The notes under the pieces: model-generated | Seen by the model: only the letters and a program-made list of their open reading frames with translations | Database searches by the model: none | Told to the model about the DNA's origin: nothing | Origin: a virus | Virus record (IMG/VR): IMGVR_UViG_3300011254_000129 | Span: 1 to 31,460 of that record | Reading direction: 5' to 3' (one strand) | Length of the DNA stretch: 31,460 nucleotides | Shown here: in pieces, positions 8,520 through 22,541 of the stretch | Layout of the letters: every line of letters starts with the position of its first letter | Position numbering within the stretch: the first letter of the stretch is position 1 | Made by a program: the position numbers and the translations under genes

Positions 8520-9125
8520 ATGGATATGAATTATGCTACTGTGGCTTTAACAGGCGGAAGGCCTATTCCGGGTCAAAGCCTTACAACTGATCCTGCAAAC
8601 CCAGCACCTTATGAAAAGCCACCTAAGTTTACTTCTGTGCATGAGGCTTCTCGAAGTATTTTTGAATATTTTATAGAACCAGAAACATACTCAAATACAA
8701 TGGAGTTGTTAGCAGACGACGTTCCTTTGATGGATATTGTACAAACATTTGTATTTACAGGCTTTAGGGAGGGACAGTGGAATCCCGATCTTATGCTAAT
8801 GCTTGTAGAACCTATCGCATATATTATACTTGCTTTAGCAGAGCGAGCAGGAATTGATCCTGTTATTTATGCAGGTGAAGATGAGGACGAGGCAGCAGAC
8901 TTAGCAATGTTAGGTACAACCTTCCAAAAAGAAAGACTTAAAAATATGGAAGAGTTTTCTAAAGAGCAGATAGCTTTGCCTGAAGGCGTGTTGCCTAGAG
9001 AAATTACAGAGCAAATTAAAACTATTCAACCCCCAGAAAGTTTATTAGCTAAACAGCCAGAAGAAACCACAGAAGCAGGCGGAGAAAGTCTGTTGTCAGA
9101 GCCTGTTGTAGAGGAGCAAGTATAA
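8520..9125 (+). CDS. Conserved marine phage virion-block protein
   Basis: A 201-aa acidic protein with a well-ordered central region: RPIPGQSLTTDPANPAPYEK near the N-terminus, then MDIVQTFVFTGFREGQWNPD and EPIAYIILALAERAGIDP at about 72-120. The C-terminal 60 residues are Glu/Pro-rich and probably disordered. The pattern recalls proteins I remember from many uncultured marine podoviruses beside the internal proteins, always without a function. An ATG two codons downstream is an alternative start. The stop overlaps the next start (TAATG), so translation is coupled. It may be a small scaffold or chaperone-like partner of the large ejection proteins; that is speculative. Confidence 0.75.
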   Translation: MDMNYATVALTGGRPIPGQSLTTDPANPAPYEKPPKFTSVHEASRSIFEYFIEPETYSNTMELLADDVPLMDIVQTFVFTGFREGQWNPDLMLMLVEPIAYIILALAERAGIDPVIYAGEDEDEAADLAMLGTTFQKERLKNMEEFSKEQIALPEGVLPREITEQIKTIQPPESLLAKQPEETTEAGGESLLSEPVVEEQV

Positions 9126-10678
9126 TGGCTATTCAAGAATTTGGACAATCCTTACTTTCTGATATCCGTGAAAGGAATGAAAGAGAGAGGCGTCGGGCGC
9201 GTAAACGAGAGGAAAAGGATCTTTTGCTAGGCATTGGGATGAAGGTTGCGGATTCAGCACTGACTAGCTATGCTAACAGAAAAACAAACAAGTTTCTTCA
9301 AAGTGAAGCTTTTTTAGCTAATAATTTACAATATAAAACGCAGTTAAGAAGAGCTACACTGGATGTCACAGATACTAATGGTAACGCAGAAGACGCTAAT
9401 TTTTTATTGAATAAATATTTGCCAGAAACTTTAGCGAGATTTCAAGCAATTGCTCCTGCTAATGCAAGCGCTACAGATATTAAAAGTCAAGCTATGTATG
9501 AAGCTCAAAGAAGGGCTGAAGAAAGACTAGCAGAATTAAATGACGAAAGAGTTAAAGCTGCCAGATCTCTTGTGTCTTCTTCAGGCGGAAGCGAAACAGC
9601 TTATAGAGATGCTGTAATAGCTTCAAGATCTAGTGGAGGTATAAAGGGTTTAGTTACAGGATTTGGTAATTTAATAACAGGCGGAACAGCCCATGATGCC
9701 GCATTAACAACTGACATGTATAGAAAATCTGAAACTTACAAGTCTTTATATAAACAAAATCCTACGCTAGCTCTTGATACTGTCGAAAGAATAGAAAATC
9801 TTAAAAAATCAGGAATATCTTTTAAAGAAGCTAATTTTGTATTTGAAAAACCTGAATCTTTAGAAGTATATGATCCTATTACTGGCGGCACTACAAAAAC
9901 ATCAATACAGTCTGCAACGCAAAACGGTATTTATGTAGGATATCAAGATTTAAGCACTCAAGAGTTTGTACATACATATTCGCCTGAGCAAAAAAAGCGA
10001 GTAAAAAATGTAGCAAGAATTGTTACTCCTGAAAGAGCAGAGCAAATAAGAGCAACTACATTTAGTGTTATTAATGACGAGCAAAGAGACCAACTAGTAG
10101 AAGTATTTACAGCTGCTTATGGAACTACACAAGACGATTCAGCATCAGCAAAAGCTATTAAACAGCATTTTTACGGTAATCTAGGATTAAACGCTGGTCT
10201 TTTAGAACAAGATTTTAATATGCAAAGACCAATTGCTTATGCGGTTGCTGCTGAAATGGAAATATTAAGGCAGCAAATGCTTGGTGGTGGTAAGATAGGA
10301 ATGATGGGTGGCATAGAAAGAAACAGAGTAATTGGTCTTGAGTTAGAAACAAATGCTGAATCTGTTAGTCCTATATTAGCTTTAGCGGCTCTTGACTCTT
10401 TAGAAGAAAAAAATACTTTACGAAGAAGTGAAGATACTTATGATAATGTTAGAAGAACTTTAGAAGATAACTTTAAAGGTGGAAACGAAAGCGTATCAAA
10501 ATTTATAGAAACTTTTGCAGGTTTAGATGTAAGCACTCAATCAGATTTATTTGATTGGATGAGACCCTACCGCTCCTTAAATCAAGAAAGAGCAAACGGT
10601 CTTTCTATAATAGAAACATTACAAAGAAACCACGCTCATTTAACTAATACAAAATATGTAAATCGTCGAAATCGTTAG
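9125..10678 (+). CDS. Virion-block protein, unknown (probable internal protein)
   Basis: This 517-aa protein starts with a very basic helix (ERNERERRRARKREEKD at about residues 17-33), followed by a mostly helical protein with no cysteine cluster and no catalytic motif that I can see. GGAG stands 9 bases before the start, and the ATG overlaps the previous stop by one base. The basic N-terminus could bind DNA or anchor to the portal-core stack. Its place between other large virion-block genes makes an internal or ejection protein likely. The specific role is unknown. Confidence 0.7.
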   Translation: MAIQEFGQSLLSDIRERNERERRRARKREEKDLLLGIGMKVADSALTSYANRKTNKFLQSEAFLANNLQYKTQLRRATLDVTDTNGNAEDANFLLNKYLPETLARFQAIAPANASATDIKSQAMYEAQRRAEERLAELNDERVKAARSLVSSSGGSETAYRDAVIASRSSGGIKGLVTGFGNLITGGTAHDAALTTDMYRKSETYKSLYKQNPTLALDTVERIENLKKSGISFKEANFVFEKPESLEVYDPITGGTTKTSIQSATQNGIYVGYQDLSTQEFVHTYSPEQKKRVKNVARIVTPERAEQIRATTFSVINDEQRDQLVEVFTAAYGTTQDDSASAKAIKQHFYGNLGLNAGLLEQDFNMQRPIAYAVAAEMEILRQQMLGGGKIGMMGGIERNRVIGLELETNAESVSPILALAALDSLEEKNTLRRSEDTYDNVRRTLEDNFKGGNESVSKFIETFAGLDVSTQSDLFDWMRPYRSLNQERANGLSIIETLQRNHAHLTNTKYVNRRNR

Positions 10679-10696: not shown

Positions 10697-13600
10697 ATGG
10701 CTACTAAAACGTATAATCTTTTTGGGGAAGAGGCTGGAATAAATCCTTCTCTTATACCCAAAGCAAAAGACTCTATGGACATTAGTCCTTTTAGAGTTGA
10801 AGTGCCTAACTATGTTAACCCTTTTGATTATGATCGTGTTGATCCTAAAGAAAAAGAATCAATAACTGAATTTGATACTGACCCTGAACTCCTTGAAAAA
10901 TTTAACGGTGTAATGGAATACTTAGGAAACAATAGTGCTTTTACTAATAGTCTTTTAGATCCTATTAGCACACCTTCTGAAACTATGCGTGACGATAATA
11001 TTAACATTGCAAAGCTTTTTGATAAGGCCATAGCCTTTAAAGATGCGCCAGAAAATATAAAAGAAGATTACGCTTACATTAAAGACCGTTGGGATGCTGC
11101 AGAAAAAAAAGGTTTTGGAGAATGGATGGACATGTTCCAAGACTACACAGTAGACTTTGCTACTGACCCTGTAGTTCTTGGAAGTTTGATTGGAGGTTTT
11201 TTTACAGGGGGAGGCACTACAGCCGCTGGAATTGCTTCTCAGGCTTCTGCTAGAGCAGCCCTTGCTAATACCCTCCGTCGGGCAGCAAACGGTGCTGTGG
11301 CGGTAACAGGAGGCTCTGGCTACACCGGAACAGCCGTTCGAGGAGCAGCTGGGCTTGGTATATATGATATTGCAGGACAAAGTTTAGATCTTGCAATTAA
11401 ACGTCAAGAAGAATATAGCCCTGCACAAACTGCTTTAATGTCTGTTGTTGGAGGTGGAGCCGCTGTAGGAATACGCGCAATAGCTCCTTCTGTAAAAACA
11501 TTTCTTTTTGGAAAATCTAAAGTAAATCGACAAACAAGCGAAGGAGCTTTTGAAGAAGCTGTAGATACTCGCACAAGAGCCGATAGAGCTAGGGAAGCTT
11601 TTGAAGCTGCAGCAGAACAAGCCGAAAAAGGCGAAATGGGATACTATACTCCTACCGGCCAAAACAAAGATTCTTTTCCGGCACTAATAGGACTGCCCGG
11701 ACGAGCAGCACAAATGGCTGATGATGTTGAAACAAGAGTTCTTGAAGGACGTATTATTGATTTAGAGGCAGAAGACTATTCAATTTTAGATGATCTTGTA
11801 GAAGACCTTGGTGGTGGTAAAGCTACTAAAGAATATGTTATGGATGCCGTAAATGTTGCTCAAAATCAAACAGATCCTGAAAAAGTAAAGAGTGTTTTAT
11901 TTAATAAACTTCATAGACAATTTTCACGCGCAACATCTACTATGTTTTTTGGAAAGGCCGCAGGTATTTTATCGCCTTATCGTGGATATTCTGCAACTGC
12001 AAAACAACTTCAAGGAAAGTTTGCGCGAGAGTTTAATAAAGTATGGTCTGGAAAACAATACAAAATTGAAGGCGATTTTTTTGAAACGCAGCAAAGATAT
12101 TTTGGAGATTTCTATACTCAATATATTGATATTGTCAGGCCTCTTTCATATAACAAAGTCAAAGGAAAACTAAAAGATAATGTTAATGCTTCTTTAAGTA
12201 TGGCTATGCGTGGTGTAGATTCTGATGTTGCAGGGTTAGAGCCTGTATATGAAGCCGCAAGAAAAATGAAAGAATTATATTCGGACATTGGTGATCGACT
12301 TGTTGCGGCTGGAGTTATTGATGAAAAAGTAGATAACTATATTCCTCGTATGTGGAATAGAACAGCCATTGAAAAAAATGAAGATCGTTTTGCACAGCTT
12401 CTTGTAGATCAAGGAGAAGCGGCTAATTTAGGAGAAGGCCGTCGAATTACTCAAGAACTATTAGAAAAACGCAATCAGCTCGACTCTGGAACTGACGGGC
12501 ATTTTTTCTCAGCAAGTCGTAAATTTAATAACATTCAAGATGATTTTATTTTTGAAGAATTTTTAAATACTGATGTTGTTGGCACACTCCATAATTATGC
12601 TTTTCATGCTGCAAAAGCTTTATCTAAAAAGGAAGTGTTTGGAGTTAATAATGAAAGAGAGTTTATTTCTAGGTGGATTAACCCTATTACAGATGATCAT
12701 TTTAAAGCTACTGGACAATCATTATCTAAAGGCGACAGACAAGCTATTGTTCAGCTTTACAGAACGGCTACAGGCGAAAACATGGAAGGCCTTGATGGTT
12801 ATTTAAGAACGGGCGTAGAAACTTATGGGCTTATAAACCGTCTCGCTTATCTTTCTCAAGCAACTGCTGCAAGTTTATCAGAAGTATTAGTTAATATTGC
12901 TGACGCTGGTTTTGTAAATAGCGTAAAAGGTTTTAAAGATGCATCTGAAATAGCATTTTCAAGAATTACTAAAAATACTGAAAAAAAACTAAAGAATGAA
13001 TTTGGTCTTACTGCTGAGGAAGTTAAACGTGAAATGTATGAGTTTGGTTTGTCAATAGATCAAGGAATTTCTCAAATAGGCAATCGGCTTGGAGGAGATG
13101 ATTATTATTCTGAACCTTTACAAAAAATTAGTAACGGGTTTTTTAAAATAACTCTTCTAGATGATTGGACTAAATTTGCACAGACGGTTAGTTATTCTAC
13201 AGGGAAAAGGCACATCATTAAAAACCTAGAAGAAGTAGCTGAGTATATAGACTCAGGTGCTAAAATATCTTCTCGTATTCAAAATAAAATGGATGAGTTA
13301 AGTGAACTAGGAATTGATATTGACCAAGGAGTAGACTGGTTTAAAGGTGGTGCAAAACTTGATGATGCTTTTTATAAAGAAATAAAACAAGGTTCTGCAC
13401 GTTATGCTAATGATGTTGTTCTTCAACCAAATGCAATGTCAAGTCTGCGTCCAATGATGTATTCAAATCCAAAAACTCAAATAATGTTTCAGCTACTGTC
13501 TTATCCTGCGGCATTTACAAATGTTATTCTTAAAAGAGCAGCAAAAAAAATAAGTCGAAATCCTACTGAAAACACTGCTAAAGTATTGTCGGCAGGACTT

Positions 13601-14170
13601 CTTATGACCGAAATGCAGCGGTGGGTACAGTACGCAAGAACAGGCGGAATGAGCGAGCAAGATTTGTCTCCTTCTGAAGCTAGAATAGAAGGCCTTAAAC
13701 GCGTAGGCGGACAAGGACTTATGCTCGCACAACTAGAAAGGGCTAAGGAAACTTCGGAATATACCGGAACAATAACTCCGTTTGTAACCGCACCTTTTGG
13801 ACCACTGGGTGCTGATGTAACAGGTGCTGTTTTTCAAGGACGACCTTATCAAACGCTTGGATCTAAAATGCCTTTTTATTCTATGTTTGGTTCTGCTGCA
13901 AATATTACAGGCAATGAAGACGAATACGAAGAATATAAGGAATACTTTAAGCAAAAAGATCGAGAACTACGACGCAGCCTACAAACTAAAAAGCCTATCA
14001 AAACTAGAGATGTGTTTGCAAAAGGAGGTATAGTAGAAGTTCCTAATGCTCCAGAAGAGCCTGATGAGCGTATAGATAAAATGACAGGTCAACCGTACAA
14101 CGAACAAGCCGGTTTAGCTTTTATTGACGAAGAAGATCCTAAACCCGTATCACTATTGTCTAAGGTGTAA
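10697..14170 (+). CDS. Large internal virion (ejection) protein
   Basis: A 1157-aa protein that starts with an acidic Pro-rich segment, then Gly-rich hydrophobic stretches near residues 155-180 and 240-265 (LMSVVGGGAAVGIRAI), then a long helical body. The last ~50 residues form a motif I know from large marine phage virion proteins: FAKGGIVEVPNAPEEPDERI, then DKMTGQPYNEQAG and FIDEEDP. By size and position it corresponds to the T7 gp16 type of injected core protein. The lytic transglycosylase motif of gp16 is not visible, so muralytic activity cannot be claimed. AAAGGAAAT precedes the start. The next gene begins 2 bases after the stop. Confidence 0.75.
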   Translation: MATKTYNLFGEEAGINPSLIPKAKDSMDISPFRVEVPNYVNPFDYDRVDPKEKESITEFDTDPELLEKFNGVMEYLGNNSAFTNSLLDPISTPSETMRDDNINIAKLFDKAIAFKDAPENIKEDYAYIKDRWDAAEKKGFGEWMDMFQDYTVDFATDPVVLGSLIGGFFTGGGTTAAGIASQASARAALANTLRRAANGAVAVTGGSGYTGTAVRGAAGLGIYDIAGQSLDLAIKRQEEYSPAQTALMSVVGGGAAVGIRAIAPSVKTFLFGKSKVNRQTSEGAFEEAVDTRTRADRAREAFEAAAEQAEKGEMGYYTPTGQNKDSFPALIGLPGRAAQMADDVETRVLEGRIIDLEAEDYSILDDLVEDLGGGKATKEYVMDAVNVAQNQTDPEKVKSVLFNKLHRQFSRATSTMFFGKAAGILSPYRGYSATAKQLQGKFAREFNKVWSGKQYKIEGDFFETQQRYFGDFYTQYIDIVRPLSYNKVKGKLKDNVNASLSMAMRGVDSDVAGLEPVYEAARKMKELYSDIGDRLVAAGVIDEKVDNYIPRMWNRTAIEKNEDRFAQLLVDQGEAANLGEGRRITQELLEKRNQLDSGTDGHFFSASRKFNNIQDDFIFEEFLNTDVVGTLHNYAFHAAKALSKKEVFGVNNEREFISRWINPITDDHFKATGQSLSKGDRQAIVQLYRTATGENMEGLDGYLRTGVETYGLINRLAYLSQATAASLSEVLVNIADAGFVNSVKGFKDASEIAFSRITKNTEKKLKNEFGLTAEEVKREMYEFGLSIDQGISQIGNRLGGDDYYSEPLQKISNGFFKITLLDDWTKFAQTVSYSTGKRHIIKNLEEVAEYIDSGAKISSRIQNKMDELSELGIDIDQGVDWFKGGAKLDDAFYKEIKQGSARYANDVVLQPNAMSSLRPMMYSNPKTQIMFQLLSYPAAFTNVILKRAAKKISRNPTENTAKVLSAGLLMTEMQRWVQYARTGGMSEQDLSPSEARIEGLKRVGGQGLMLAQLERAKETSEYTGTITPFVTAPFGPLGADVTGAVFQGRPYQTLGSKMPFYSMFGSAANITGNEDEYEEYKEYFKQKDRELRRSLQTKKPIKTRDVFAKGGIVEVPNAPEEPDERIDKMTGQPYNEQAGLAFIDEEDPKPVSLLSKV

Positions 14171-14172
14171 AT

Positions 14173-16035
14173 ATGATAGGTCCGTTTGTAAAATCTATTG
14201 CAAGAGCAACAAACAATTCTTTGAGGGACGATTACGTAGAAGCAACTGCTCAAAAACTTGATAGGGTTGTTCGTGATTTTGAAGGCTCAGAAAATCCTTC
14301 AGATGAAATGTTATATGATTTTGAAAACTATGTAGATGTACTTACTCAATACACTGTTAAAAAAGACAATGCAGATTTAGAAGACGTGTTAGAGTTTGAA
14401 AGACTTAAAAGACTTGTAGATCCTAATCAAAACTATCGTAATCAAATTTCATCTTCTTTATCAGACGTTAGGTCTTTAGTTAAAATTACAGATAAGTTTA
14501 CAAAAGAAAGCAAGGCTCTTCCTGAAGAGGTAGTTCCTCTAGCTAAAGTAGCTGGAGACGCCTTGTTAGATGGAAGAAGTAAAGCACTTTCTCCGTTTGT
14601 AACGAAAGAAGCTAAACAGAAAATTGGCGCTAATGTCTTAAATGAACTATTAGAAGTAGATACATACAAACCTATTATTGAATCTATTGCTAGACGAATG
14701 CCAGAAAATCAAACAATTGATGAGCTACAAGCAAGTGCAAAAGAACGGGCGCAAAACAAAGTAGACTTTACTAGAAATAGTGTCGAAAAGAAACCACAGT
14801 TTAGGGCTACTACAAGTCATCATGACCTACCATACGACATTTCGTTTGCTTATCCACGGGAGTTGGGGACGCATGTAGGGACGCTAGGACAAGCAACTTC
14901 TATTGCTGTTCAGGGAATAAACCCCTACAGCGACATAGGGCGATATTTAGACTCTCGTTTAGTGCCAACACAAAAGTCCGATGTAGATCAGTTCTTTGGC
15001 TCTCAAAAAATGGTGGAAATTAAAGACGTAGTAGATAAGCCCATGAAAGCTTCAAGGCCTGCTGCTATGAGTAAGGGTTATATCAATGTAAAAAATCCTT
15101 TAAAGATTGATTATGACGTTAAAGAATGGAGTGCTGAATATTTTTTAGTAGATCAAGGCCAGAAAATTTATGATTCAATTGTAAAACAAGCAGGTAATCT
15201 TGCTAGTCCTCAACTTAAAAAAGATTTTACAGATCTTATAAAAACTGCTCAAGAAATTACAGATACTGAGTGGAAAAAGGGTTTAGGTTTAGACTCAGCA
15301 ATGCGTATAAGTTTACAAAAAGTAGAGTTAAATTTTAAATTTCAAAAACTTCTTCAGCGTAACGGCTTTGATTCTGTCCGATATAAAAACGAAGTAGAAG
15401 CATCTCTTAAAGGAGAGCCTAAGTATTCTTATATTCTTTTTAAACCTGAGCAGTTTAAGTCCACGACTGCTAAGTCTTATGATAAAGGAGATCCACGCTT
15501 TACATTTAATGAGGGTGGTCCTGTAGGGCGTAGCGAAAGCGCAATACCACTAAACATTAAAGCCTTTATTGGCGATCTGTTAGGCTATGACACTCCTATT
15601 ACTGAAGAGCATTTAGACGAAGAAGAATATCAAAGCTTAATAGAGATTGCTCGTCGTGTTAAAGAAGCAGGAAAAAGCGCTATCGAATATGCAGACTATC
15701 AAACACAATCAGAAGGGCGGTCTCAGTATGCAGATATTGGAGGTGGTGGTGGAAACCTTGATTTCTTAAAGAAAGTATTTGATCCAAAGTATAGTTTAAA
15801 AACAACTCTTGGGCAAGCCAGTATCGAAGAAGACAGTCAAGGAAATACAATCATTAAAGATCGTTATAATTTTAATAATGCTTCTGGTGATATGAATGCT
15901 ATTGATTTTTTAAAGGGTGTTAAAAGTGCAGGGACTAACATATACGCACAAGCAAGAAATGTGGCTACTGCGTTAGGAAGTGCGCCCGGAGAAGGTAGTG
16001 AAGTTGTAATTAATTTAGGGCGCTTAGACTCTTAA
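14173..16035 (+). CDS. Virion-block protein with ADP-ribosyltransferase-like domain
   Basis: A 620-aa protein with three parts. Residues 1-200 are helical and charged. Residues about 210-445 resemble ART-fold domains found in phage and plasmid polyvalent proteins: FRATTSHHDLPYDISFAYP, then GTHVGTLGQAT with His234, GYINVKNPLKIDYD, GFDSVRYKNEVE with Glu407/Glu409, and SYILFKPEQFKS. The C-terminal 150 residues (LGYDTPITEEHLDEEEYQSL, IEYADYQ, KTTLGQASIEEDSQGNTI, VVINLGR) look like a conserved tail domain of large marine phage virion proteins. If active, it would transfer ADP-ribose from NAD to a host target after injection, like T4 Alt. The ART assignment is by motif pattern only; the tail and context are stronger. 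Confidence 0.65.
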   Translation: MIGPFVKSIARATNNSLRDDYVEATAQKLDRVVRDFEGSENPSDEMLYDFENYVDVLTQYTVKKDNADLEDVLEFERLKRLVDPNQNYRNQISSSLSDVRSLVKITDKFTKESKALPEEVVPLAKVAGDALLDGRSKALSPFVTKEAKQKIGANVLNELLEVDTYKPIIESIARRMPENQTIDELQASAKERAQNKVDFTRNSVEKKPQFRATTSHHDLPYDISFAYPRELGTHVGTLGQATSIAVQGINPYSDIGRYLDSRLVPTQKSDVDQFFGSQKMVEIKDVVDKPMKASRPAAMSKGYINVKNPLKIDYDVKEWSAEYFLVDQGQKIYDSIVKQAGNLASPQLKKDFTDLIKTAQEITDTEWKKGLGLDSAMRISLQKVELNFKFQKLLQRNGFDSVRYKNEVEASLKGEPKYSYILFKPEQFKSTTAKSYDKGDPRFTFNEGGPVGRSESAIPLNIKAFIGDLLGYDTPITEEHLDEEEYQSLIEIARRVKEAGKSAIEYADYQTQSEGRSQYADIGGGGGNLDFLKKVFDPKYSLKTTLGQASIEEDSQGNTIIKDRYNFNNASGDMNAIDFLKGVKSAGTNIYAQARNVATALGSAPGEGSEVVINLGRLDS

Positions 16036-16043
16036 GGAAAAAA

Positions 16044-16469
16044 ATGCAAAGACTTATAGAAACTTTAAAGCGTCACGAAGGCGTTAAGTACTACGTTTAT
16101 AAAGACCATTTAGGCTATGAAACTATAGGCGTAGGGCGCTGTATAAAGCGTGGTGTGGGCTTAGGACTAACACATGATGAAGTAGACTACCTGCTGATGA
16201 ATGACGTACAGCGGTGCTTAGAAGAGCTTGACGGGGCTTTTGCATGGTTCAAAGACCTTACCGAAATTAGACGAGAGGCAATGGTAAATCTTTGTTTTAA
16301 TTTAGGACTTACACGACTTCGAAAATTTGAAAATGCTTTAGCAGCAATGTCAATCCACAATTACGATGAAGCAGCAGATGAGTTTTTAGATAGTCGTTGG
16401 GCTACACAGGTTGGTCAACGTGCAATAGAAGTAACAGAAATGATTCGTACTGGAGATATGTATGAGTAA
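16044..16469 (+). CDS. Endolysin, T4 lysozyme family (GH24)
   Basis: This 141-aa muramidase aligns with T4 lysozyme over its catalytic face: Glu12 in HEG, Asp21 in YKDHLGY, and Thr27 in TIGVGR. All three match T4 Glu11, Asp20 and Thr26 at the same spacing. It cleaves the MurNAc-GlcNAc bond of peptidoglycan. There is no signal peptide or N-terminal anchor, so it is cytoplasmic and needs a holin to reach the wall. Its length is normal for the family. TTAAGGAA precedes the start. It overlaps the next gene by 8 bases. Confidence 0.93.
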   Translation: MQRLIETLKRHEGVKYYVYKDHLGYETIGVGRCIKRGVGLGLTHDEVDYLLMNDVQRCLEELDGAFAWFKDLTEIRREAMVNLCFNLGLTRLRKFENALAAMSIHNYDEAADEFLDSRWATQVGQRAIEVTEMIRTGDMYE

Positions 16470-16752
16470 GGAAAAAGATTCTAGGCTAAAAAGGGCAGGA
16501 GTAAGTGGATATAACAAACCGAAACGTACGCCCAGTCATAAAACAAAATCACATATCGTGGTGGCAAAAGAAGGCGACAAAGTTAAAACAATTCGCTTTG
16601 GTCAAAAAGGTGCGAAGACTGCAGGCAAACCAAAGGCCGGAGAGTCAGCAGCAATGAAAGCAAAAAGAAAATCGTTTAAGGCTAGACATGCTAAGAACAT
16701 TAAGAGAGGAAAGATGTCGGCAGCTTATTGGGCTGATAAGGTCAAATGGTGA
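16462..16752 (+). CDS. Small basic protein of marine phages, unknown
   Basis: A 96-aa, very Lys-rich protein (SRLKRAGVSGYNKPKRTPSH, SHIVVAKEGDKVKTIRFGQ, KARHAKNIKRGKMSAAYWAD). There is no membrane helix. The sequence pattern is familiar from many marine phages, where it is usually found near other basic mini-proteins. The charge suggests nucleic acid binding or packing in the capsid. The function is not known. The ATG overlaps the endolysin stop by 8 bases (ATGAGTAA), so it is translated from the same message. Confidence 0.75.
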   Translation: MSKEKDSRLKRAGVSGYNKPKRTPSHKTKSHIVVAKEGDKVKTIRFGQKGAKTAGKPKAGESAAMKAKRKSFKARHAKNIKRGKMSAAYWADKVKW

Positions 16753-21175: not shown

Positions 21176-22032
21176 AACAGGATCTCGTCAACTCGTGGGG
21201 GTGCTACAACTTTAGTAAAGTATGTAGGACCGTTTGAATATGCGTAAGCCTTAAGGCCTTCACCGTCGTTAGCATCTGAGTAGCACTCAAACTTATAAGG
21301 GCAGTACGCACAACCAGAAGGCAGCTTCATGTTTCCTTTCTTGCCTTCAGGTATAGGAGAATAGCATTTTGAAGGGGGCGTGTCAACCGATAATGCTGAT
21401 CTAATCTTCTTTATTCTCTGAGGTATGTTAGGCTTTTCAAGATCATCGGGCCTGTATAAACATAACTCACCACTCTCTTTGTTGATAACAAGAAAGCCTC
21501 CAGCCTTTGTTTCTTCAGCGGTCTCATAACCGGAAAGCTGCGCTAGGTATCCAAAGGGGTCGTTATCGGCCAGTGTACCATTCTTAAATTTATTGAATGC
21601 AAACTTAGAGGCTGTCTTAACATCTACTACCTCGCCGTTAATCTTACAGTCCATGTGGCCTTTGATGCCCGACACGTCTATTTCTTTCTGTTCTGATGTA
21701 ACCTCGTGTCCTGTCATGCGGACTAGCATCAAAACAATCTCCTCTAGAAGATGCCCATAAAGAAACTTAATCTGTGTTGCACCGCTTACTGTTCTCGCTG
21801 AAGATGGTGTTCTGCTTTCATACCACAACTGTCGAAGGGGCTTACCAATGTTAGACATCCGTAAAGTGAACTCAGCTTGTGGATCTCGTGGTGTAGCCCA
21901 AGACAAGATGCTTTCTTTAATACGGACAAGAGTATCATCTAGCTCTGTCTCATCAATGTTAAGTGGCTCGCCAATCGACAAGTCTTCAAGCTTACCGTAA
22001 ATGTCTTGTATAAGAGTATCTAAGTTTTTCAT
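21172..22032 (-). CDS. PD-(D/E)XK exonuclease, Cas4/RecB type with Fe-S cysteines
   Basis: A 286-aa nuclease. The core has His94 (GHLLEE), Asp128 in GHMDCK, Asp137-x-Lys139 in VVDVKTAS and Gln165 in QLSGY: the H-D-(D/E)xK-Q order of RecB/Cas4 nucleases. Cys241, Cys244 and Cys250 (C-x2-C-x5-C) have the C-terminal spacing of the Cas4 iron-sulfur cluster. The usual N-terminal cysteine is absent (SNIGKPLRQLWYE), and Cys223 may be the fourth ligand. In T7 the matching job, 5'-3' digestion of host DNA and primer removal, is done by gp6. The ATG overlaps the upstream stop (ATGA). Confidence 0.85.
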   Translation of the reverse strand: MKNLDTLIQDIYGKLEDLSIGEPLNIDETELDDTLVRIKESILSWATPRDPQAEFTLRMSNIGKPLRQLWYESRTPSSARTVSGATQIKFLYGHLLEEIVLMLVRMTGHEVTSEQKEIDVSGIKGHMDCKINGEVVDVKTASKFAFNKFKNGTLADNDPFGYLAQLSGYETAEETKAGGFLVINKESGELCLYRPDDLEKPNIPQRIKKIRSALSVDTPPSKCYSPIPEGKKGNMKLPSGCAYCPYKFECYSDANDGEGLKAYAYSNGPTYFTKVVAPPRVDEILL

Positions 22033-22541
22033 TTTAATTCCATTTTAACTTCATTAAGTATTTGACGAGCGTCTTTAAGTGAACAACGAAACCACTCGCC
22101 TTGTTGGTTGAACTTACTAGCCAGTATCTGATGTGCTTTTGCTTCTGCTGCTCGTCTGTCACTGACTTTGCAAAAGTATTGTAACTCAAAATCACGAAAG
22201 GGGCTAGAGGTTTGATAACCTTTTAGTCTGTCTATTGCGTCTACAGCCATTCCAACCTTTACCCATCCTTCAAACGCAGGGTTAGTGATGATATATACTT
22301 CTCCTTCTTTAGAGGATTTGTAGTTCTGTAAGGAACTAAATGCTGCCTCTTCAAATCCTTCGTAGCGTCCGGGCTTGTGGAGTGGATGAGATTTAGAAAT
22401 ATATTTGCCATCAACAAACATTCGGTTAGGGTTGTGTTTAGCGGTACGCTCTTTATTTTTTTTGGGATTATCCTTGTAATAATAAGGCTTACCAGTTCTA
22501 GGATTAATCTTAGTGTGTGTCTGCCCAGTTGTTTCCGACAT
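22029..22541 (-). CDS. GIY-YIG nuclease, T5orf172/MUG113 type
   Basis: A 170-aa protein. Residues 80-155 form a GIY-YIG domain of the T5orf172 kind: VYIITNP (82-88) for GIY, VKVGM (94-98) for YIG, Arg105 in DRLKGYQ, and catalytic Glu133 with His137 in AAEAKAHQ, then GEWFRCS. The N-terminal 75 residues are basic and Tyr/Asn-rich (RTGKPYYYKDNPKKNKERT) and may bind DNA. GGAGAG precedes the ATG, which lies within the last bases of the polymerase gene. It could be a free-standing homing nuclease or a nuclease that attacks host or rival DNA. There is no intron or split gene beside it. Confidence 0.8.
   Translation of the reverse strand: MSETTGQTHTKINPRTGKPYYYKDNPKKNKERTAKHNPNRMFVDGKYISKSHPLHKPGRYEGFEEAAFSSLQNYKSSKEGEVYIITNPAFEGWVKVGMAVDAIDRLKGYQTSSPFRDFELQYFCKVSDRRAAEAKAHQILASKFNQQGEWFRCSLKDARQILNEVKMELK

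Follow-up and report, generated by a model that had tools for sequence, protein, structure and literature searches.

The window, i.e. the whole stretch of 31460 bases analyzed here, corresponds to the virus record IMGVR_UViG_3300011254_000129. Its GC content is ~0.36-0.45, and the phage collection contained no near match to its first 25 kb. Since the minus strand carries genes for a B12-type ribonucleotide reductase, DNA polymerase A, a T7-like primase-helicase, and an endonuclease I-like protein, the virus, a marine phage, looks, by gene content, like a T7-supergroup podovirus. A GIY-YIG (T5orf172) endonuclease gene on the same strand (22029-22541) overlaps the end of the DNA polymerase A gene.

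The gene under study encodes a protein of 620 aa (Table 1). The ORF given in an earlier note on this DNA is real; its ATG start was confirmed by translation. The start lies two bases past the stop of a 1157-aa ORF, and the sequence AAGG is found a few bases 5′ of the ATG. The upstream ORF matches the virion structural family phrog_6958 (E = 2e-19) and, by tblastn, virion structural proteins of the Pseudomonas phages KPP25 and PaP3. A match of ORF 9125-10678 to the BrnT toxin was discarded as noise (17.9 bits vs. a cut-off of 34.5). The phrog_7595 gene of the window also weakly matches phrog_220 (minor head protein and DNA pilot). A holin-family gene (phrog_3427, 2284-2682) is distant from the lysozyme gene and is followed downstream by a 1507-aa ORF without family match.

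Table 1. Coordinates of genes, domains, and candidate active-site residues in the window.
Feature	Position	Strand	Basis
1157-aa ejection-type virion protein	10697..14170	+	corresponds to N-terminal part of relatives' giant protein
620-aa ORF	14173..16035	+	ATG start; helical N-terminal part, ART-like domain, C-terminal module (translation, model)
ART-like domain, aa ~205-434	14785..15474	+	sub-threshold ART-PolyVal, phrog_7348, structural matches, hhalign
Arg211, strand 1, canonical-His position	14803..14805	+	alignment
His234, strand 2 (GxHVGT)	14872..14874	+	alignment, model strand E233-236
Asp400 immediately ahead of strand 5 (GFDS), candidate for the third active-site position	15370..15372	+	nearly invariant
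Glu409, acid in strand 5-6 turn	15397..15399	+	36/37 ungapped rows
C-terminal module, aa 458-620	15544..16032	+	phrog_7348 positions 2391-2554; alpha/beta in model
Phage lysozyme gene, adjoins ART ORF	16044..16469	+	PF00959, E = 3.3e-13
96-aa phrog_7595 protein	16462..16752	+	phrog_7595, E = 1.2e-42

Sequence and fold of the ART-like domain

An ADP-ribosyltransferase (ART)-like domain had earlier been placed at residues ~210-445, with the motifs GTHVGT (His234), YINVKNPL, GFDSVRYKNEVE (Glu407, Glu409), and SYILFKPEQFKS. All of these motifs are present, and intermediate sequences, profile-profile comparison, and two structure models support an ART-type domain, with bounds now at residues ~205-434.

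On its own, the window protein stays under the Pfam gathering cut-off for ART-PolyVal (PF18760), with 20-22 bits (20.1-21.8) vs. 31.2, and its 20.1-bit match is restricted to the C-terminal part of the profile. All scanned members of its family likewise score under the cut-off. In the first set of relatives, ART-PolyVal was the most frequent Pfam match (17 of 23 members; best E = 2.2e-5). Searching PDB sequences and isolated phages with single domain sequences gave nothing useful. Direct hhalign of the window family gave no significant match to the RPP1 domain; the link passes via intermediates. Over several search rounds, relatives of the domain were found encoded on ~50 viral contigs, and the motif blocks are kept exactly in relatives of 29-41% identity on dozens of viral contigs, a conservation well above what chance would give. 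From the window, the chain leads to L041 and L024 (35-41%), on to L134 (BLASTP of L041 vs. L134, E = 1e-11), and then to L187 and L193, which exceed the ART-PolyVal cut-off (42.3 and 38.0 bits) and cover nearly the whole profile. Members with the canonical YHGT motif (L134, L186-L194, and L211) appeared in later rounds, and hhalign aligned the profile of the window family to that of this canonical set with 99.5% and E = 3.8e-23. These intermediate sequences establish the homology of the window domain to polyvalent ARTs.

The prototype of ART-PolyVal is the vRNAP of Roseovarius Plymouth podovirus 1 (CBX87992.1). With this family the window domain shares the order of blocks (strand 1 motif, GxHxGT strand 2, NPL strand, G[FY]DS strand 5, and SYI strand 6); in relatives, it likewise seems to reside in giant proteins encoded alongside virion genes. 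It differs in its Arg on strand 1 and its sub-threshold score, and its partners are an ejection protein and a phrog_7348-type C-terminal module rather than an N4-type RNA polymerase. Ribosomal protein S17 and uL23m, which the family profile also matched, scored low and were rejected as chance matches. As none of the 20 pattern matches in a genome_contigs scan with the family profile was confirmed, no prophage form was found there.

In an AlphaFold2 model of the domain (23 sequences; mean pLDDT 70.7, higher in the strand core), the strands follow the ART order. A full-length model (38 sequences) agrees with it, and the core domain blocks mostly reach pLDDT 80-96. Comparison of the domain model by VIA-align gave 9k3a_B from the cyanophage A4 pre-ejectosome as best match (Z 7.6, rmsd 4.4, 140 aligned), followed by tankyrases/PARPs (~5-5.7), AcrIF11 (6kyf, Z 5.4), and MbcT (6fkg, Z 5.3). 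With the full-length model, ART folds took all of the first nine rows, after which the score dropped from 4.3 to 3.2. Both models thus point to the fold of the ART superfamily, and sequence homology backs the Z values, which are middling by the tool's own scale. The hhalign comparison and the structural ranking favored an ART. Foldseek alone returned no PDB match at E ≤ 0.001 with either model, but among viral models (BFVD) nine matches at E ≤ 1e-3 were obtained, the lower rows being named ART-PolyVal-like.

The best structural match, 9k3a_B, is A-4L gp27 (L055 20119-25269, minus strand), whose translation holds LYHGTRVKGW...GSGTYFSKSSQAASDNA. Like the relatives of the window protein, it is a podovirus ejection protein, and its ART-like segment bears LYHGT and GTYFSKSSQA; unlike the window domain, it has the canonical His on strand 1, and it comes from a different host and ejection protein. 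Since hhalign of the canonical set against A-4L gp27 reached only the YHGT strand (E = 0.033, no significant sequence similarity), the link is a structural one. Pfam misses the segment, which a ParB-like stretch seems to precede. The literature search, whose results did not include the 9k3a paper, yielded no text on whether its authors call A-4L gp27 an ART. AcrIF11, an ART fold among the top matches of both models (Z 5.4 and 4.8), is a small stand-alone anti-CRISPR protein, whereas the window ART is a domain of a predicted virion protein.

Candidate active-site residues and selection

Published polyvalent ARTs carry His on strand 1, Tyr on strand 2, and Asp on strand 5 (PMC5512222). In the window family, the strand 1 motif reads [FY]R plus a small residue, with the R standing where YHGT has its histidine: all 28 family rows covering the site have R, and all 6 canonical rows have H. 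Arg211 therefore departs from the H-Y-D configuration on strand 1, as does His234 on strand 2; the latter is kept in 36 of 37 ungapped rows of both clades, lies in the DSSP strand E233-236, and is also His in the canonical members used, including L187 and L193. Only strand 5 agrees, with the nearly invariant Asp400, which the model places just ahead of strand E401-405. Because the polyvalent configuration has its Asp in strand 5 (PMC5512222), we take Asp400 as the candidate third residue. Glu409 also remains a candidate, since the His-type domain of L010 has lost the strand-5 Asp (Thr instead) but retains the Glu. Ser419 is invariant or nearly so in the alignment. Compared with the R-S-E type (Arg, Ser/Thr, and Glu on strands 1, 2, and 5), Arg211 fits strand 1, but His234 does not fit the Ser/Thr of strand 2, and the relatives belong to the polyvalent lineage.

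The active site named in the earlier note thus held in part. Its Glu409 is conserved, whereas its His234 sits on strand 2 and was rejected as the strand-1 catalytic His, its Glu407 was rejected as catalytic Glu because the position varies (E/T/Q/K/A/V/M/N and others), and both Arg211 and Asp400 had been missed.

In a maximum-likelihood tree, Arg-type and His-type domains fall on opposite sides of one branch (100/100), with long branches in the His group limiting statements on the root. The window domain is best read, from these alignments, as a member of a derived arginine-type clade of polyvalent-protein ARTs. This clade was absent from the isolated phages searched. The ART domain is the slowest-evolving part of the 620-aa protein: compared with L001, dN/dS was 0.033-0.035 for the ART domain, 0.084 for the N-terminal part, and 0.118 for the C-terminal module (dS ~0.5). 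The value of 0.033 indicates that the domain is kept by strong purifying selection.

Replacement of the strand-1 His throughout the clade could mean a changed or lost reaction. The main rival to an active enzyme, prompted by the missing His, is that catalysis was lost with the change to Arg and that the ejectosome retained the fold for a structural or host-binding role. Large inter-strand insertions in some members would suit such a role, as would the fact that 9k3a_B itself belongs to an assembled pre-ejectosome. A purely structural module would not, however, be expected to evolve most slowly and to retain exactly the cleft residues, and very divergent members show little or no variation at Arg211, His234, Asp400, Glu409, and Ser419. 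Active R-S-E ARTs, moreover, normally have Arg on strand 1 (PMC7955679). For both reasons, we weigh loss of catalysis below the enzyme and regard it as unlikely. The fixed change from His to Arg offers a natural test of how far the ART cleft tolerates changes in its strand-1 residue.

Association with ejection proteins

The family phrog_7348, a profile of 2564 positions labeled endolysin in PHROGs, spans the upstream ORF (positions 45-1056, E = 1.7e-192), the ART domain (1339-1607, E = 1.3e-35), and the C-terminal module. In the relatives L025, L027, L028, L034, L036, and L037, these three regions are covered by a single ORF of 1634-2187 aa, so that the ART is covalently part of an ejection-type virion protein. 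Some of these fused proteins of 1.6-2.2 kaa also contain LysM, and that of L027 additionally matches phrog_6958. The ejection context claimed for the gene is hence supported, as the protein to which relatives fuse the ART corresponds to the next upstream ORF of the window. Judged by these gene layouts, the ART is split off as an adjacent gene in the window and fused to the ejection protein in relatives. Other relatives are stand-alone ART proteins of 740-960 aa with LysM, and the N-terminus of the 620-aa protein resembles those of the stand-alone L024, L058, L088, L119, and L124 (alignment A7).

Further rearrangements involve the two flanking modules. In L119, residues 752-837 form a phrog_7595 module at the C-terminus of the ART protein (E = 1.5e-36), which in the window is a separate gene; the comparison is read as gene fission or fusion across the group. 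L124 and L126 also carry a phrog_7595-like tail. The C-terminal module is shared with pelagiphage HTVC115P gp40, SIO1 gp23, and ICBM1 AYP28148.1 (E = 2e-19 for gp40 and ~1e-5 for siovirus proteins). In HTVC115P gp40 and the siovirus proteins, the ART domain was not detected. What had been called a conserved tail domain at 458-620 is accordingly conserved, as the C-terminus of phrog_7348, but nothing marks it as a tail domain. Given fused, split, stand-alone, and ART-less arrangements among relatives, the ART is interpreted as movable cargo in a modular ejection protein, and on podovirus ejection proteins it would represent a swappable module.

The endolysin label of phrog_7348 is probably wrong and may be explained by LysM in some members; the profile would correctly be described as an ejection-type protein with an ART domain. 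L010 (3615-8126) encodes a 1503-aa protein with a His-type ART (VYHTS, GVHVGT) before a C-terminal module of the window type. HTVC115P gp46 (L011 3338-3787) is annotated as a toxin-activating lysine-acyltransferase and lies among large hypothetical genes upstream of gp40.

Possible role in infection

We favor, with a probability of about 0.6, the reading that the 620-aa gene encodes an ejection-associated virion protein with an ART of the polyvalent lineage. The protein would be packaged alongside the ejection proteins and enter the cell together with the DNA or shortly ahead of it. NAD+ would then be bound in a cleft formed by Arg211, His234, and Asp400 and close to Glu409. Early in infection, ADP-ribose would be passed to at least one host molecule, and the bacterium would thereby probably be disarmed or redirected from the outset.

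According to Iyer et al. 2017 (PMC5512222), no protein-modifying domain is more common in polyvalent proteins than the ART; their prototype is a podovirus vRNAP, and T4 Alt serves as the model. A 2022 survey reported ARTs in 3% of siphoviruses and podoviruses (PMC9503650). The injected-ART strategy is hence already published, and the description of such a system as little-described does not hold: a 2017 study had already reported ARTs in injected podovirus proteins (PMC5512222), and the structure of a podovirus pre-ejectosome protein with an ART-like fold has been solved (9k3a). New here are the arginine-type clade, a different ejection protein, and the uncultured phages. The analogy with T4 Alt drawn earlier is reasonable for the mode of use, Alt being a head-packaged ART injected with the DNA (PMC5512222). 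It does not extend to the type of enzyme: Alt is of the R-S-E type, with Arg on strand 1 and Ser on strand 2, whereas the window domain has His on strand 2 and derives from the H-Y-D polyvalent type.

A T7-type RNA polymerase (PF00940) was detected in none of 16 records (the window, 13 relative contigs, and two isolates sharing the C-terminal module; the contigs may be incomplete); T7, the positive control, was detected. SIO1 was likewise reported to be without RNA polymerase (PMC6775973). From both observations, early transcription is probably carried out by the host polymerase. An Alt-like action of the domain on host RNA polymerase is attractive and plausible, but no more than a guess. Still more tentatively, the Arg-His-Asp class with its invariant Glu may have evolved once from His-type polyvalent ARTs and, borne by ejection proteins of widespread uncultured marine podoviruses lacking their own RNA polymerase, may modify the host transcription machinery or a defense factor before phage expression; we consider this extended scenario doubtful.

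Instead of tagging host proteins, the domain could act as an NAD+ glycohydrolase or modify nucleic acid or a small molecule, e.g. against NAD-based defense. The ART superfamily includes such activities, and MbcT and RES toxins, which degrade NAD, were among the structural matches. NAD-dependent conflicts in phages are also listed in the survey (PMC9503650). No specific sequence feature points to such an activity, however, and the polyvalent lineage has been proposed, as a proposal only, to modify host proteins (PMC5512222), so that we judge a non-protein target improbable compared with ADP-ribosylation by an ejected ART. Very remote is the idea of chance motif likeness in a phage structural protein, to which the sub-threshold Pfam score and the Foldseek result would point, but against which stand the intermediate chain to above-threshold members, with its hhalign E-value, and the ART folds heading the rankings of both models, which were aligned separately.

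With an ejected ART as the preferred reading, injected ARTs would extend beyond T4-like and N4-like phages and recur on ejection proteins of uncultured, largely marine podoviruses. The probable correction of the phrog_7348 label concerns database annotation, and the solved cyanophage A4 pre-ejectosome provides a template for direct study of a podovirus-borne ART-like domain. Among the relatives, we also noted that in L020 (1-3303) the ART domain is followed by a further stretch with LLIDEAQSDVHKQG and then LysM; possibly, this stretch represents another polyvalent-protein domain.
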